From Gimesia maris (GTDB taxonomy: Bacteria; Planctomycetota; Planctomycetia; Planctomycetales; Planctomycetaceae): a stretch of DNA of 64,000 bases. The stretch covers positions 5,285,001-5,349,000 of the forward strand of contig NZ_CP042910.1 of NCBI RefSeq assembly GCF_008298035.1, written 5' to 3'. Below are positions 56,577 to 64,000 of this stretch, piece after piece. Every line of letters begins with the position of its first letter. Within the stretch, counting starts at the first letter, position 1. The notes under the pieces were generated by a model. That model did no database searches, was not told the DNA's origin, and saw only the letters and a list, made by a program, of their open reading frames with translations. Position numbers and translations under genes: made by a program.

Positions 56577-56666
<90 letters not shown>

Positions 56667-56820
56667 ATTTTTGTACAAGACCGCTTTTGACCCTTTTTTT
56701 GTAGGACCAAACGATCAACTGGAATTGAAGATTCTGATTTTGTGCTAGATTTGTGTTGATTAGAAATCCGTTTGATTGTGATTACAATATTAAAAGGTTC
56801 AAAGTGCCGCTGTACAAAAT

Positions 56821-57108: not shown

Positions 57109-58057
57109 CTACAGTGTCTTCCTCCGACTTCGACCATCGGGAACGGGCAATCCTTTTTGCTGGTGCCAGAATTTAACGGCTGCGGTAATAACGTTTCGGT
57201 CAACCCCCAACTGTCGGGCAATTTCACCGTATGTCTTTTTCTTGTGAAACAATTCCATCACATTATCAGCTATATTCTGATGGAAGAGGGGCTTTTGATG
57301 TGCGGTATCCAACTGCCATCGCCGCTGGCGTCCGTCTGGTTTTTCCAATCCCAGTAATTCAAAAGCTTCGTGCAACAGTAATATTACACGAGATCTTCCT
57401 ACATTAAGCGCCTCTGCGATGTTCTTGATCGGTTCACCGTTATCATACATATCATTTGCGATCTTTCTCTGATTTTCTGTTGCATCCGGCTGAATGAAAT
57501 CTATTGATATCAGCTTCGCATGCTCAGAGGCATTTTGAGTTGGAGAACCATTAACCACCTCACCAGATACACCATGTGCTGTGAGTGTAAACGTTCCACG
57601 CAATGCCTTTCTTTTCCTCAAGGGAATATCAAACTCCTCTAAAATAATCTCTCCTCCAATCAGGTTACGCAATGACTGATTTGCGGTAGGAGAAGACACC
57701 TGTAGGTCTTCGTGCATGCTTGAAAGCTGCTCCCGTAGTGACCTGCCCCCGAGAATGACACCAGTCACAAGACTTAGTGTTCTGTTGTTTTCATGTCTGG
57801 CCTGTTCGGCCGTTTCCAGAGTTGCAAACAGTTCTGGGGTCAGAAACACTGTCCCCGCGGCATTTTTTGATCGCGTATTTCAAATGAGTCGAACGCAGCC
57901 ATTTCCGCAAACGTTGAATCGATTCTGAGGTCCAGGCCTGATGAGCGGTGGGATCGTCAGCATAGAGTTTCAGCAGTTTTGTATCTCCCGGGTCCTTCTC
58001 ATCAGCCCAGAACTGCAAAGCCGCGATAATGAGGAGTAGATCCTTTCGAGTGAGCAT
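57109..58057 (-). pseudogene. Frameshifted HTH DNA-binding protein (recombinase-tail-like)
   Basis: A frame starting at ATG 58057 (AAAGGA five bases before) gives 65 residues of helical protein, LIIAALQFWADE then DDPTAHQAWTSESIQRLRKW, up to the A6 run (T6 at 57863-57868 on the plus strand). There the frame changes. The next frame runs to 57109 for about 246 residues and contains two helix-turn-helix motifs, IKNIAEALNVGRSRVILLLHE and YGEIARQLGVDRNVITAAVK, ending GLPVPDGRSRRKTL. A one-base change in the A6 run would join the two parts into a protein of about 316 residues. The C-terminal layout resembles the tail of planctomycete serine recombinases (from memory, not searched); the catalytic domain is missing. 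Confidence 0.6.
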
Positions 58058-58277
58058 GGGGTCCTTTCAATCAGAAAAGTGATCTCTGAGAACAAAATCA
58101 GCCTGTTGAAGACATTTTTGCTGGTCATCAGCGGGTTGATTATACGGAAAGTGGAAGTCGCTGAGGGCTATACCAGAGGACTCACCTTATATGCCGCGTT
58201 TTCTGACTGGATTTAGATAATTAAATGTCGGATAACAAAAGATGCTGCACTGAAAAGTTATCATCAGTGAGAACCAG

Positions 58278-58979
58278 TCAAATCGTTTGAATCTCTGCAC
58301 AGATCCCGTAGTGATCAGAAAGATTCATGCCCTCCACCGTTTTTTTGGCAAGCACTTCGAGATTCTTTACCTGCTGATCAGGTGTGGTTACGAGATGGTC
58401 AATAAGCTGATCACCGTCCGGCCCCAGTGGCCCGGCCGTATGCAACTCCAGACCCAACGACAGCACTTCCTTTAATTTTTCATAGGCATATTTCGGCTGC
58501 CGTGCTTTGGGGATCCACTGATTGAAATCCCCCGTGACGATTAAAGGATCCTGGCTCATCAATTCGCTCAACAGTTCCTTGAGCGCATCCAGATAAAGCA
58601 AATGGTCCTCCCAGATATTACGATCCTTACGTCCGCCTGAAACATGTGCGGCACTCCAGGGGATACAGACACCCACAAACCGGACTCCACCAGTCACGCC
58701 GCTCACAATTCGACCGGAGGGAAAACCCAGGTCGTCATGAATGGAAACATCATTCCAAGGCAGAGAACTCCATAGCAATACTTTGCGTCGACCTTTTATG
58801 AGTGGATAACCAAAATCAGGATCCGATTCAATCAGATGGCCTCTATCCGGTAACAACCCCGCCTGGGCTTCTGTCAGACAGATCACATCCGGAGAGCGAC
58901 CTTGAATCAATTCCCGCAGCAATGTCCCTCACTCATTGTGAGACACCGCCCATTCTGTTTTCCAGATCACACATCGCAT
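58278..58979 (-). pseudogene. Endonuclease/exonuclease/phosphatase-fold gene broken by in-frame TGA
   Basis: The frame from ATG 58979 gives the typical family beginning MRCVIWKTEWAVSHNE, then hits TGA at 58931-58929 (codon 17), then continues in the same frame with GTLLRELIQGRSPDVICLTEA to the normal end at 58278. All downstream motifs are present: LTEAQ (catalytic Glu), VTGDFNQW and NLSDHYGICAE (catalytic Asp-His). The conserved Asn of the first motif, which should be at WN, is lysine here (WK). A CGA to TGA change would explain the stop. A TTG start at 58922 could give a 214-residue product lacking the first strand. Hydrolase activity is doubtful. Confidence 0.75.
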
Positions 58980-59087
58980 GATTCACTTACCTGTTAACTC
59001 TTTTTAACTTAGTGGCGGGTCTTTCAGGTCGACCTGATTGATAAGTTTCATTGCTCGCATACCTGGTACTCAGAGCCCTGGGTGTTT

Positions 59088-60194
59088 CTAGCCCCCTGCT
59101 TTGAGTTGCGCGATAAAGGGGCTGAAAGTCTTCTCCAGACGAATCATCGCATCGACCATTTTTTCGATAATTGCTTGCCACTCCGATTCATCGTCCCGAT
59201 AACCTCCCGGAAACTCTATCACAATTCGGCTGGCTTTCGAACCATCGAGCCGTCGCCATTCCAGGGGGCCACCAAAGACGGCTTCAATCTGATCTTTATG
59301 GGAATATAGCGTATCAAAGATCTTTTTATTTTCCGCCTTACACCCCGCGCCACGATCGATATACAGATCGACGATCGAAGTATGCTGTGTGACCTTGTAT
59401 GTATAGGCCAGCCCCCGTACGCCGGAGCCCGTTCCGATCCAGTGGTATTCTGAAGGTGAGATATTCGAATGCAGATCCGTTTGTGTATTGGCATATTCCA
59501 GCAGTTTTGACCAGAACCTTTTGCGGATTGAATATCGTTCCGCCCGGTCCTTCCGCTCCCGGCGTTCCTTCTCCCGGACTTGCACTGTATAGGCGGACGC
59601 CTCGGGCAGGGGGACGATCTGCTGCACATCGATCAGAATCTTTTCGCCATCCTGGTACGGCTTCATCCGCATGCAGCGAATATCCAGATCCCGCTCATTC
59701 AGCCAGAGGACGGCGGTCGTCAGTTCCCTGGAAAACTCGGCCGAGGCCAGAATGATTCTCACGTCCTGGGCAAAGCGGTCCTCGTCCGGCTCACTCCAGT
59801 CGAGATGTTCCAGCAGCGCCTCGCGTGCATCGGTTGTACTGCTAATTTTATTCAGGTAACCGGAGAACACTTCCACGGCCCGGTCAAATGTCATCGCCGA
59901 GACCATCGCCGCATAACGGATCGCCTGCAGTTCCATATGTCCGCCATCGTCGGTCCGCTTGAGTTCGATGACCACCAGGTTGGCATCCTTATCCACGCCC
60001 AAAAGATCGATCCGCCGACTCCCTTCGGTCCACTCCCCGAACTCCTCGGCAATCACCAGCGTGTCCGGCGAAATCACCTCCACCTGCATCCGCAACAGCC
60101 GCTGCAGATCATTCCGCTCCTTCACCCCCGCTTTGGCGTAAGAGGTCTCTTTCAACTCCCGCAGGGAATCCGCCGTGATTTCATAAATGGCCAT
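59088..60194 (-). CDS. DUF4268 protein with PD-(D/E)xK nuclease-like N-domain
   Basis: The 368-residue protein has two parts. Residues about 1-130 look like a restriction-endonuclease-fold domain: RRIDLLGVDKDANLVVIELKR near residue 60 supplies the D...ExK signature, as in NucS/DUF91-type nucleases. Residues about 220-365 match DUF4268, with RKRFWSKLLEYANTQTD and VDLYIDRGAGCKAENKKIFDTL. Such proteins are often next to restriction or defence genes. GAGGAA precedes the ATG. It is divergent from the PglW-like gene, so the two probably share regulation in one defence locus. A nuclease role is inferred from the motif, not proven. Confidence 0.82.
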   Translation of the reverse strand: MAIYEITADSLRELKETSYAKAGVKERNDLQRLLRMQVEVISPDTLVIAEEFGEWTEGSRRIDLLGVDKDANLVVIELKRTDDGGHMELQAIRYAAMVSAMTFDRAVEVFSGYLNKISSTTDAREALLEHLDWSEPDEDRFAQDVRIILASAEFSRELTTAVLWLNERDLDIRCMRMKPYQDGEKILIDVQQIVPLPEASAYTVQVREKERRERKDRAERYSIRKRFWSKLLEYANTQTDLHSNISPSEYHWIGTGSGVRGLAYTYKVTQHTSIVDLYIDRGAGCKAENKKIFDTLYSHKDQIEAVFGGPLEWRRLDGSKASRIVIEFPGGYRDDESEWQAIIEKMVDAMIRLEKTFSPFIAQLKAGG

Positions 60195-60622
60195 GGTGTT
60201 TCCTCAGTGCAACTCACGTAAAGTACAGAATAATAAGTTAAGTCATGTGACTGGTTTCATTAAAGAGTGATAAAACCAGTCCCATTTAATCTCTTCCTTC
60301 TCACTGAATTGAAAATACACAACCACAGTACCCAAATGTATACAACCTTTCCAGATAACAGAGCTACAGAGACTAACATAAAAACAATGTATTCCATGCA
60401 ATGCTTCTTTTTGGTGAGGGGATGGTTTCGGTGTGCAACTTAAAATCAGCAATTTGTCAGCAATCGACTGATTGAAAACCGTAACCTGAACTGGTATGGT
60501 GAGGTGTAAATATGTTCGAGCAAATTCACCCTGAAACAATCCGTGCTTTCAGCTCGGAACTTCCTCTCTGAACTTGAATTAACTCACTGTTTTTCAAAGA
60601 GTCAACAGACGCGATTCCAATA
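60195..60622. other. Divergent control region between the DUF4268 and PglW-like genes
   Basis: This 428-base region separates the two divergent genes, so it should carry both promoters and any operator. A minus-strand open frame here (98 residues) has no known motif and is likely fortuitous. No clear promoter was assigned. Confidence 0.45.
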
Positions 60623-63600
60623 ATGGCCGAGGCAGACAACTGGACAACCGTTACTGAATCAAAGTTTTCCTGGGAAAGGGAAGCCCTTGACTATGTGCGT
60701 AGTCAGTTTCCTAAATTTGCGCCCTACCGCGCCTGGTCTAATTTCGAATTCATCGCCGATGATGGAAGTATCAATGAGGTCGATCTGCTTGTCTTCTCGC
60801 CCCAGGGATTTTTTCTCATCGAGATCAAAAGCAGTCCCGGCAGACTCCAGGGCGATGCAGGCACCTGGACCTGGGAACGGGACGGCAAGCGATACCCGGT
60901 CGATAATCCGCTCATCGCCACCAACCTCAAAGCCAAAAAACTCAGTTCGCTGCTGCAGAAACAGAAGGCGCTCAAAAACAGAGGCCGCCTCCCGTTCATC
61001 GAGCCCCTCGTTTTCTGCTCAGCCGCCGGTCTGCAGTGTGAATTGAAAGGCAATGCCCGCGCCAAGGTCTGCCTCCGCGATCGGGAAGAACCGAAACGTC
61101 CCGGCATCATGGCTGCCATCTCGCGCCGTGAATGCCCCGGACTCGATTCCCATCTCAAAGGCACCCACGATACCCCCATGTCCAATGCCGTGGGACAGGC
61201 CCTCAACCAGGCCGGCATTCGCCCCTCGCAGAAAAGTCGAAAGGTCGGCGACTATCTGCTGAAACAGATCATCGGCGAAGGTCCCGGCTATCAGGACTGG
61301 AGTGCCGAACATACCGCGCTGGAAAATTCCAAACGCCGCGTCCGCCTCTATCTCGTTAGAAATGAAGCGACCCCGGAGGATCGCGACACGGTTCAGAGAG
61401 CGGCCCTCCGCGAATACCAGATCCTTGAGACTCTCGAACATCCGGGCATCCTGCGCGTGAATAACTTCACCGAGCACGAACTCGGCCCGGCACTTCTCTT
61501 CGAACACGATCCGCTCAGCATGCGCCTCGATCACTTTCTCGCCAGGCAGAAAGATCAGCTTGATATCGCAACTCAACTCGATCTCATCAGGCAACTCGCA
61601 GAAGCCATGCAGTACGCGCACGAGAAAAAAGTCGTCCATCGCGGCCTCTGTCCGCAAAGCATCCTCGTCACATCCATCAATTCTGAGCACCCTCGCCTCA
61701 AGGTCTTCAACTGGCAGCTCAGCTATCGTGAAAGCAGTACATCCACAAAAGTCTCCCGCGCCGTCAGCGCGACTTCCCACGTCGATCGACTGGTAGAAGA
61801 CGCCGCCACCGCTTACATGGCTCCAGAGATACTCACCGATTCCCAGACCAGTACCGGAGAACACCTCGATGTCTTCTCGCTGGGAACCATCGCCTATCAG
61901 ATCTTTTCCGGGTTACCCCCAGCCGCCAATGCCCTCGAACTCAGCGAGAAACTTCGTGAAACCAAGGGGCTGCAGATCAGTTCGGTCCTGAATGGCGCCA
62001 GTGAATGGCTGCAGGAAATGATCCGCTCGGCTACCAACCCGGTCGTCCCTGATCGCACCGGCTCCATCGTTGATTTCCTGGAAATGCTCGACGAAGTCGA
62101 GAACGAACTCACCTCACCCGATCATGAACAACTCGAGGACCCGACCCGCGCGAAGATTGATGATATCCTCCCCGGCGGTTACAAAATCCTGCGCAGGCTC
62201 GGTCACGGCGCCTGTTCCGTCGCCTTCCTCGTCGAACTCGATCAGCAGGACTTTATCCTCAAAGTCGCCAGCGAAACCAGGCACAACGATCGACTCCGCG
62301 CCGAAGCCGAACTGCTCAGTCGACAGGAAATGCGACACACCAACATCGTCGATTTTGTCGATGCGGTCCAGCTCGGCAACCACTTTGGTTTCCTCATGCG
62401 TCCCGTCTATACAGAACGGGGCAAACGACTGATTGAAACCCTCGGCCAGCGGCTGCGTAAAGATGGACGACTCCACATCGACCTGCTCCAGCGGTTCGGC
62501 GACGACCTGCTCCAGGTGGTCAACCATCTTGAAGAACAGGGCATCCCGCACCGCGATATCAAACCCGATAACATCGCTGTCGGCATGGTCGGGCGCGGCA
62601 GTAAACTGCATCTGGTTCTCTTCGATTTCTCACTTTCGAAAACTCCCGCGGAAAATATCCGCGCCGGTACGACCGGCTACCTCGAACCACTGCTCCCCCT
62701 GCGCGAACCGGCCCCGCCCCGCTGGGACCTGCACGCCGAACGTTATGCCGCCGCTGTCACACTCTACGAACTCGCGACAGGCACGCTCCCCGTCTGGGGG
62801 GATGGAGTCACCACCGCCATCTATCTGCCGACTGACACCGAAATCACCATCGATGCCGAACTCTTCGATCTCGCGCTCCGCGAATCCCTCACTGAGTTCT
62901 TCACACAGGCCTTCCGCCGCAATATCGACCAGCGGTTCGACAACGCTGAAGAAATGCTCCGCGCCTGGCGCAACTGCTTTGAAGGCATCGATGAACCCGG
63001 AGCCCTCTCCGATCACGCCGATGAAACCAGGCTCCAGGAACTCCTCGCCGACGCCGAATTCGAAACGCAGATTCCCGAACTCGGACTCGGTTCCCGCTCG
63101 GCGAATGCCCTCGACCGCGCGAACATTCTGACCGTCGAAGATCTGCTCACCGTACCCATGCGGCGGCTCATGCGTCTCCGCGGCGTCGGAAATAAAACAC
63201 GCCGCGAAATCACGTCAGCCGTCAAAATTCTCCGCGATCGTCTGGGCAAACCCGATCGAGATCCCAGCTCCCTCAGCGATCCGGAATCTACTCAAACTGA
63301 ACCGGTGGCCGTCGAACATCTCAGTCTCGACCTGCTCGTCAGTCGCCTCCTGAATACCGGTGCCCGCGATGGTGAGAATTTCCAGCGCGGCGTGCGACTG
63401 CTGCTCGGACTCGATCCCGCACTCCAGGATCCCTGGCCCAGCCAGGCCGAGATTGCGCGAGAGCTGGACGTCACCCGCGCCCGTGCCGGTCAGATTGTAA
63501 CCAGACTGCAGGACCGCTGGAGCAAAGACGCCGCACTCACGCGGCTCCGCGCCGATCTGGCGGAAATGCTCGCTGTTCAATCCGGCGTCATGTCAATCCG

Positions 63601-64000
63601 GGAACTGGCCGAAGCCCTGATCGTCGCCCGCGGCTCCTCGGAAGAACTCTTGCAGAAAACCGCGCACGCCTGCGCCGTCATCCGCGCGGCTGTAGAAGTT
63701 GAACGCACCATGACCGAACCCCGGTTCCTGGTGCGGCGTGAAAATCAGAGCATCCTCATCGCCGCTCATACCGAGTTCGCTACCTGGGCCCGCAAACTGG
63801 GCGTCATCGCCGATCAGCTGGCCGACGAAGACCCGCTGCTCGCCCCCGCCCGCATCCTCGAACGCCTGCAGGAAGTCACACCCCCCGACGATCTGCTCAT
63901 TCCCGATGCCCGCCTCGTCCGCCTGGCAGCGGAAGTCTCTGATCACGCGGCCCTCTCCAGTCGGCAGGAACTCTATCCGCGCAACATGGATCCCGTCCGC
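60623..64000 (+). CDS. pglW: PglW-like NERD-pseudokinase-kinase protein (BREX type 2/Pgl), runs off right edge
   Basis: The frame is open from ATG 60623 to the right edge (1126 codons, no stop). Domains in order: a NERD nuclease-type domain (residues about 15-125) with EVD at 52-54 and EIK at 67-69; a first kinase-like domain (about 215-460) in which HRD is HRG (339-341) and DFG is FNW (362-364), so it is a pseudokinase; a second kinase domain (about 520-770) with GHGACS loop at 527, Lys547, HRDIKPDN at 643-650 and DFS at 668-670, apparently active; a segment like the RNA-polymerase alpha C-terminal HhH domain (about 820-865); and a sigma-region-4-like HTH (about 940-966). This layout matches PglW, the Ser/Thr kinase of the Pgl/BREX type 2 phage-defence system. 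No ribosome site is obvious. Expected partners PglX, PglY and PglZ would lie beyond 64 kb. Confidence 0.78.
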   Translation, partial: MAEADNWTTVTESKFSWEREALDYVRSQFPKFAPYRAWSNFEFIADDGSINEVDLLVFSPQGFFLIEIKSSPGRLQGDAGTWTWERDGKRYPVDNPLIATNLKAKKLSSLLQKQKALKNRGRLPFIEPLVFCSAAGLQCELKGNARAKVCLRDREEPKRPGIMAAISRRECPGLDSHLKGTHDTPMSNAVGQALNQAGIRPSQKSRKVGDYLLKQIIGEGPGYQDWSAEHTALENSKRRVRLYLVRNEATPEDRDTVQRAALREYQILETLEHPGILRVNNFTEHELGPALLFEHDPLSMRLDHFLARQKDQLDIATQLDLIRQLAEAMQYAHEKKVVHRGLCPQSILVTSINSEHPRLKVFNWQLSYRESSTSTKVSRAVSATSHVDRLVEDAATAYMAPEILTDSQTSTGEHLDVFSLGTIAYQIFSGLPPAANALELSEKLRETKGLQISSVLNGASEWLQEMIRSATNPVVPDRTGSIVDFLEMLDEVENELTSPDHEQLEDPTRAKIDDILPGGYKILRRLGHGACSVAFLVELDQQDFILKVASETRHNDRLRAEAELLSRQEMRHTNIVDFVDAVQLGNHFGFLMRPVYTERGKRLIETLGQRLRKDGRLHIDLLQRFGDDLLQVVNHLEEQGIPHRDIKPDNIAVGMVGRGSKLHLVLFDFSLSKTPAENIRAGTTGYLEPLLPLREPAPPRWDLHAERYAAAVTLYELATGTLPVWGDGVTTAIYLPTDTEITIDAELFDLALRESLTEFFTQAFRRNIDQRFDNAEEMLRAWRNCFEGIDEPGALSDHADETRLQELLADAEFETQIPELGLGSRSANALDRANILTVEDLLTVPMRRLMRLRGVGNKTRREITSAVKILRDRLGKPDRDPSSLSDPESTQTEPVAVEHLSLDLLVSRLLNTGARDGENFQRGVRLLLGLDPALQDPWPSQAEIARELDVTRARAGQIVTRLQDRWSKDAALTRLRADLAEMLAVQSGVMSIRELAEALIVARGSSEELLQKTAHACAVIRAAVEVERTMTEPRFLVRRENQSILIAAHTEFATWARKLGVIADQLADEDPLLAPARILERLQEVTPPDDLLIPDARLVRLAAEVSDHAALSSRQELYPRNMDPVR

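Follow-up and report, generated by a model that had tools for sequence, protein, structure and literature searches.

BREX type 2 (Pgl) is called a largely unexplored subtype in a 2026 survey (PMC12839542). Section 22 of that survey describes a pseudokinase paired with an active kinase in the PglW family, BrxA-like and BrxB-like parts of these proteins are published there as well, and part 1 of its section 35 reports nucleases embedded in BREX loci. In the Streptomyces Pgl system, as given in the cited passages of PMC4365076, the genes pglW, pglX, pglY and pglZ include those for a NERD protein with two kinase domains and for an NPPY methyltransferase. The same passages report kinase activity of Streptomyces PglW and a requirement for the lysine of its active kinase, and they place pglWX and pglYZ in two operons 6 kb apart. 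The locus described here contains the same four genes with the same protein types but differs in being one same-strand run of six genes. In gene content, gene order and domain layout it agrees with published BREX type 2, which makes it a good specimen of a known system and ordinary in kind. With it, a little-explored subtype gains a complete BREX-2 locus that is free of cargo and lies on one strand.

Family assignment and domain architecture of PglW

The analyzed window is a stretch of 64,000 nucleotides (G000:C1:5285001-5349000) from a one-contig genome of 7.82 Mb. pglW begins with ATG at its right edge and occupies 60623..64000 on the plus strand, a frame of 1126 codons still open at the edge, as an earlier sequence-only reading had described. 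Extension of the sequence gave a complete gene of 1405 aa (L002:623-4840) ending at window-extended position 64840 (window-extended coordinates are L002 coordinates plus 60000), and the window holds its first 80% (1126/1405 codons). PglW scored 1698 bits against the NCBIfam BREX_PglW model NF033442 (cut-off, 990), and the in-window part of the protein scored 1266 bits against PADLOC PglW. The PglW-type kinase proposed from the sequence was thus the best family match. Stand-alone NERD kinases unrelated to BREX, namely, the defence kinases MkoA, PD-T4-6 and MAD6, match the protein too (MAD6, 247 bits; PD-T4-6, 150 bits), but MAD6 stays below its cut-off of 460, and the PglW profiles score 1266 to 1698 bits end to end, far above these families. 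Neither the best match nor the gene neighbourhood is that of MAD6, MkoA or PD-T4-6, and with five other BREX-2 genes downstream of pglW, the stand-alone reading is already refuted and has a negligible probability.

All features of pglW lie on the plus strand, and residue counts for the protein refer to 70 sequences, its own included, from frames of at least 1250 aa. The NERD nuclease-related domain noted earlier was located at aa 16-131 (60668..61015; Pfam PF08378, 59.5 bits), with residues E52, D54, E67 and K69 conserved in 69/70 sequences and the remaining one gapped there. Pfam Pkinase matched two stretches (143.6 bits). Both of the kinase domains claimed earlier were found, but PglW has one active-type kinase because the first domain is without catalytic residues. 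That domain (approximately aa 205-501; 61235..62125) is a pseudokinase that reads HRG, S346 and N363, with G341 at the HRD Asp and N363 at the DFG Asp, a catalytic loss that is observed directly. The HRD Asp is absent in 70/70 aligned sequences, and the DFG Asp position is Asn in 64/70 and Asp in 3/70. The second domain (approximately aa 512-789; 62156..62989) is an active-type Ser/Thr kinase whose K547, D645, N650 and D668 are all kept in 70/70 sequences.

An RNA polymerase alpha-CTD-like domain follows at aa 811-867 (63053..63223; Pfam PF03118, 44.4 bits). It is one of two polymerase-interaction-like modules in the earlier account; the other is best read as a winged-helix/helix-turn-helix block instead. 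This block, predicted from the structure of a homologue, starts at approximately aa 890 and extends over 63290..64000 and past the window, with approximate boundaries, and Pfam gave no match within that stretch of PglW. The domain layout matches that published for BREX type 2 in the cited sections of PMC12839542. Upstream of pglW, a promoter-like site, TTGAAA-17-TATGGT, lies at 60472..60500 on the plus strand; since 1 was found in the region and shuffles expect 3.9, its position is its sole support.

Predicted structure of the PglW C-terminal half

The C-terminal half was judged on the PglW homologue of Gimesia SAT87, which is 67% identical to PglW here, the same figure as for the PglW of genome G011. 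Its stretch corresponding to residues 800-1400 was modelled together with 44 relatives (an alignment of 45 of the 69 stretches listed), giving a model with a mean pLDDT of 89.6 and a pTM of 0.53. Model residues 10-73 matched the alpha-CTD 1z3e_B (Z, 9.4), and the helix-turn-helix block matched a sigma-region-4 chimera over residues 100-236 with a middling Z of 7.8. For residues 425-594, the best solved match outside the alpha-CTD rows was BrxB (9zll_E), aligned over 156 residues at a Z of 8.6 and an rmsd of 4.1; general AAA+ folds tie with it to within 1 Z (NSF-type domains, 8.1 and below). Foldseek alone returned no match to the model at E <= 0.001. A sequence profile of BrxB, built from 5 genomes, aligned with PglW collinearly and weakly (hhalign probability, 3-8%), and BrxB was absent among the best 60 of 61 PDB-chain sequence matches. 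Stand-alone BrxB (PF08747) was not found in the genome at E <= 1e-10 and is present in 5/199 genomes of the phylum sample.

As judged on the homologue, the predicted alpha-CTD-like and BrxB-like folds agree with the published claim for the family. 9zll is the BrxC-BrxB-PglZ complex of Acinetobacter BREX, and the predicted BrxB-like fold at the PglW C terminus is a likeness to that type 1 system. BrxB is a separate chain there, whereas here it would be fused to PglW. The BrxB-like end gives a docking prediction in which the PglW C terminus would contact the PglZ N terminus.

The downstream BREX genes

The sequence-only reading placed a BREX type 2 locus at the window edge, and extension past 64000 revealed the other five BREX type 2 genes, all on the plus strand and within 14.5 kb. 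In window-extended coordinates, they are pglX (65397-69134; 1245 aa; NF033451, 1380 bits; cut-off, 400), pglY (69403-73107; 1234 aa; PADLOC BrxC-PglY, 1452 bits, end to end), pglZ (73104-75809; 901 aa; NF033446, 803 bits; cut-off, 200), brxD (75816-77132; 438 aa; NF033438, 667 bits; cut-off, 350), and brxHI (77196-79307; 703 aa; PADLOC BrxHI, 989 bits, full length). Against its NCBIfam model, pglY scored 1043 bits, below the cut-off of 1700, though it was matched end to end, and no BrxHI-named NCBIfam model was among the best 25 of 30 matches for brxHI. pglY and pglZ overlap by 4 bases, and the gaps flanking pglX measure 556 bases (pglW-pglX) and 268 bases (pglX-pglY). Among same-strand ORFs of at least 90 aa, none is embedded between pglW and pglX, pglX and pglY, or pglY and pglZ. 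The outcomes that would have refuted the sequence-only reading, a lack of BREX genes within about 15 kb downstream or best matches to stand-alone NERD kinases, were not seen. Gene content and order are observed directly, and the W-X-Y-Z order on a single strand matches that in relatives where these genes were found. The six genes form one same-strand run and may form a single transcript. The compact and uninterrupted core would make the operon convenient to use for reconstitution.

All six frames are open, and their motifs are in place. These comprise DPACGSGH and NPPY (at 387) in PglX, the Walker A motif GSFGSGKS in PglY, D486, D606, D646, H647, H649 and H714 in PglZ, GEYGCGKT in BrxD, and PTAGGKTE and DEIH in BrxHI, which we take to be those expected of each BREX enzyme. 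They are near-invariant among aligned homologues (45 PglX, 40 PglY, 19 PglZ, 10 BrxD and 9 BrxHI sequences, own included, short frames left out). Almost certainly, pglW opens a complete BREX type 2 (Pgl) anti-phage operon that looks intact. An operon that is present but inactive, whether decayed or switched off, has some precedent among relatives: in genome G005, the beginning of pglX and the end of pglY are joined in a single ORF, and locus L054 truly lacks the middle of pglX (the stretch matching PglX 288-1177). An 8-G tract in the pglX gene here could also slip. Set against this, six open frames with their motifs make inactivity improbable.

Proposed mechanism

In the most likely scheme, and by analogy with published work on relatives, PglX would place N6-methyladenine at a specific site of the host DNA as a mark, and kinase signalling and a PglZ nuclease would likewise be part of the system. 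PglW would dock on DNA and on PglZ/PglY via its alpha-CTD-like, helix-turn-helix and BrxB-like C-terminal parts and would sense unmarked or invading DNA, with the pseudokinase restraining the second kinase until activation. Two of these steps, the pseudokinase as a brake and PglW docking on PglZ/PglY, we infer ourselves. PglZ, with its nuclease/phosphatase fold, would then act with the PglY ATPase, the BrxD ATPase and the BrxHI helicase to block phage replication, and the NERD domain would be a possible reserve nuclease. The order of these events has about an even chance of being right.

Genomic setting and codon usage

The operon lies in a strain-variable region whose left edge is a tRNA-Ser(GGA) gene at 56577..56664 (plus strand), 4 kb upstream of pglW. 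Shared gene order ends there: the order common to 5/5 compared genomes of the genus (5 of its 16 other genomes) stops at 56664-56671. Over the approximately 32 kb compared past tRNA-Ser, the DNA of the five genomes is unmatched, bar short pieces in two. In the comparison with genome G014, which has the most similar marker gene of those compared (90%), gene order resumes at own position 171529. The intervening region spans 115 kb here and 67 kb there, and four short pieces within it match. At 141988, beside one of the pieces matching G014, 14 bases of the tRNA 3' end occur again. No tyrosine recombinase (PF00589) was detected in 5341671-5456529; each of the genome's 9 matches, of which 8 exceed the cut-off, falls outside this interval.

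PglW exceeded the cut-off in 12/99 genomes searched, own included, and pglW is present in 5/17 genomes of the genus. The BREX-2 operon of G003, a member of the same genus, encodes a PglW about 40-42% identical and is approximately 1.57 Mb from the tRNA-side marker gene. In a PglW tree (FastTree, 77 sequences, midpoint root), G003 PglW falls outside the clade that unites PglW here with that of G064, a different family, and the tree disagrees with kinship.

C-ending codons had been noticed by eye, and counting bore this out: the C3 of pglW, 0.474, is the highest of 100 ORFs (at least 200 aa; 200 kb examined), compared with a plus-strand mean of 0.283 (sd, 0.066). pglX has the third highest C3 of the 100. 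These two genes show the bias strongly and pglY (0.343) in part, whereas brxHI (0.232) stands at background. GC3 in operon order from pglW to brxHI is 0.69, 0.64, 0.66, 0.56, 0.54 and 0.50. Since the genes of the two nearest PglW homologues are also C-rich (C3, 0.59 and 0.58), the bias belongs to the operon lineage. The pglW, pglX and pglY genes of G008 and the pglW and fused pglX of G005 likewise exceed in C3 the BREX genes that follow them. A strand effect may account for some of the excess, because the minus-strand neighbour at 59088 has many codons ending in G (G3, 0.398). More than codon bias, it is the breakpoint at tRNA-Ser, the patchy occurrence of pglW and the PglW tree that support the suggestion of acquired DNA.

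Genes flanking the operon

Upstream, 57109-60194 encodes a helix-turn-helix protein, an endonuclease/exonuclease/phosphatase protein and a NucS/DUF4268 nuclease. The last, at 59088-60194 (minus strand), is 368 aa long and combines a NucS_C-like region with DUF4268, the sole DUF4268 match in the genome. DUF4268 is reported in some GmrSD-type restriction proteins in the cited part of PMC4619093.

These genes directly adjoin the operon and are divergent from it, an arrangement that would suit working parts of the BREX system, as would the E-x-K nuclease-like motif and the at-cut-off NucS_C match of the DUF4268 protein. In a plasmid BREX-2 locus of Sphaerotilus (L137), a gene annotated as endonuclease/exonuclease/phosphatase likewise lies upstream of pglW, but its protein does not align with that of the window (E, 9.7). 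In tblastn searches, the three upstream proteins had no match at E <= 0.001 in 80 PglW loci, 43 of them with the full 10 kb upstream, or in 9 relatives. The upstream neighbours were rejected as BREX parts, a role that is highly improbable, since they did not recur in these loci and relatives.

Downstream of the BREX operon, L003:3839-11539 holds a row of genes for an AAA ATPase with IetA matches (76 bits), a protein with sigma-70 region 2, a protein of 303 aa that has no Pfam match and one of 1469 aa with a marginal CHAT match. Eight further island proteins had no PADLOC match at E <= 1e-10.

Comparison with other BREX-2 loci

Within the genus, G005 and G008 encode a PglW 81% identical to the one here, with the same C-ending codon bias in pglW. 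They differ from this locus in their flanks and in carrying a further gene, of 379 aa, between brxD and brxHI. In G008, two additional genes lie between pglX and pglY, and pglX and pglY are fused in G005. The fused gene (L022:14774-16579) is a single ORF in which PglX 1-459 (92% identical) is joined to PglY 1080-1233 (48%), the result of either an in-frame deletion or an assembly fault. Compared with both G008 and G064, brxD is the most conserved BREX gene and pglZ the least.

A census kept 80 of the 204 PglW loci found. Among the loci listed, W, X, Y and Z were in order wherever called, and at L083 a brxHI frame precedes pglW. Same-strand ORFs of at least 150 aa lie between W and X in 19/51 called pairs, between X and Y in 11/33, and between Y and Z in 0/21; these cargo counts omit some loci because the ORF caller dropped true frames overlapping pglW or a longer antisense frame. 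An apparent lack of pglX or pglY in some relatives was rejected: tblastn found PglX in 7/7 gaps tested (six loci and G003) and PglY in G071, L073 and L108.

The pglX G tract and flanking repeats

The 8-G tract occupies pglX nt 1651-1658 (L002:7047-7054; window-extended 67047-67054), in frame and within a conserved HPWS-x-x-GGGA motif, and is one of two G8 tracts in the 150 kb of ORFs scanned. It equals in length the switchable tract of Streptomyces coelicolor pglX, for which the cited passages of PMC4365076 give 8 G in the Pgl+ strain M145 and attribute phase variation to tract length. As a conserved feature the tract was rejected, since 0/51 other pglX motif rows have at least 7 G (two genomes appear twice, G011 as L038 and G075 as L074). 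Three plasmid pglX genes have no run of at least 6 G or C.

By analogy with Streptomyces, pglX might be a switch gene, in which the 8-G tract would slip the system off and on and flanking repeats would permit clean pglX loss; we consider this unlikely. If true, BREX-2 would share a toxicity-driven on/off habit across phyla. The repeats are two exact same-direction copies of AGCCGCAGGGCGTTAGCCCCGGTT that flank pglX at G000:C1:5350250-5350273 and 5354230-5354253 and are identical by eye over 27 bases. This dispersed 24-base repeat occurs 11 times in the genome, 4 times exactly and 7 times with one mismatch, and its pairing is not special to pglX, because another pair elsewhere also lies within 5 kb.
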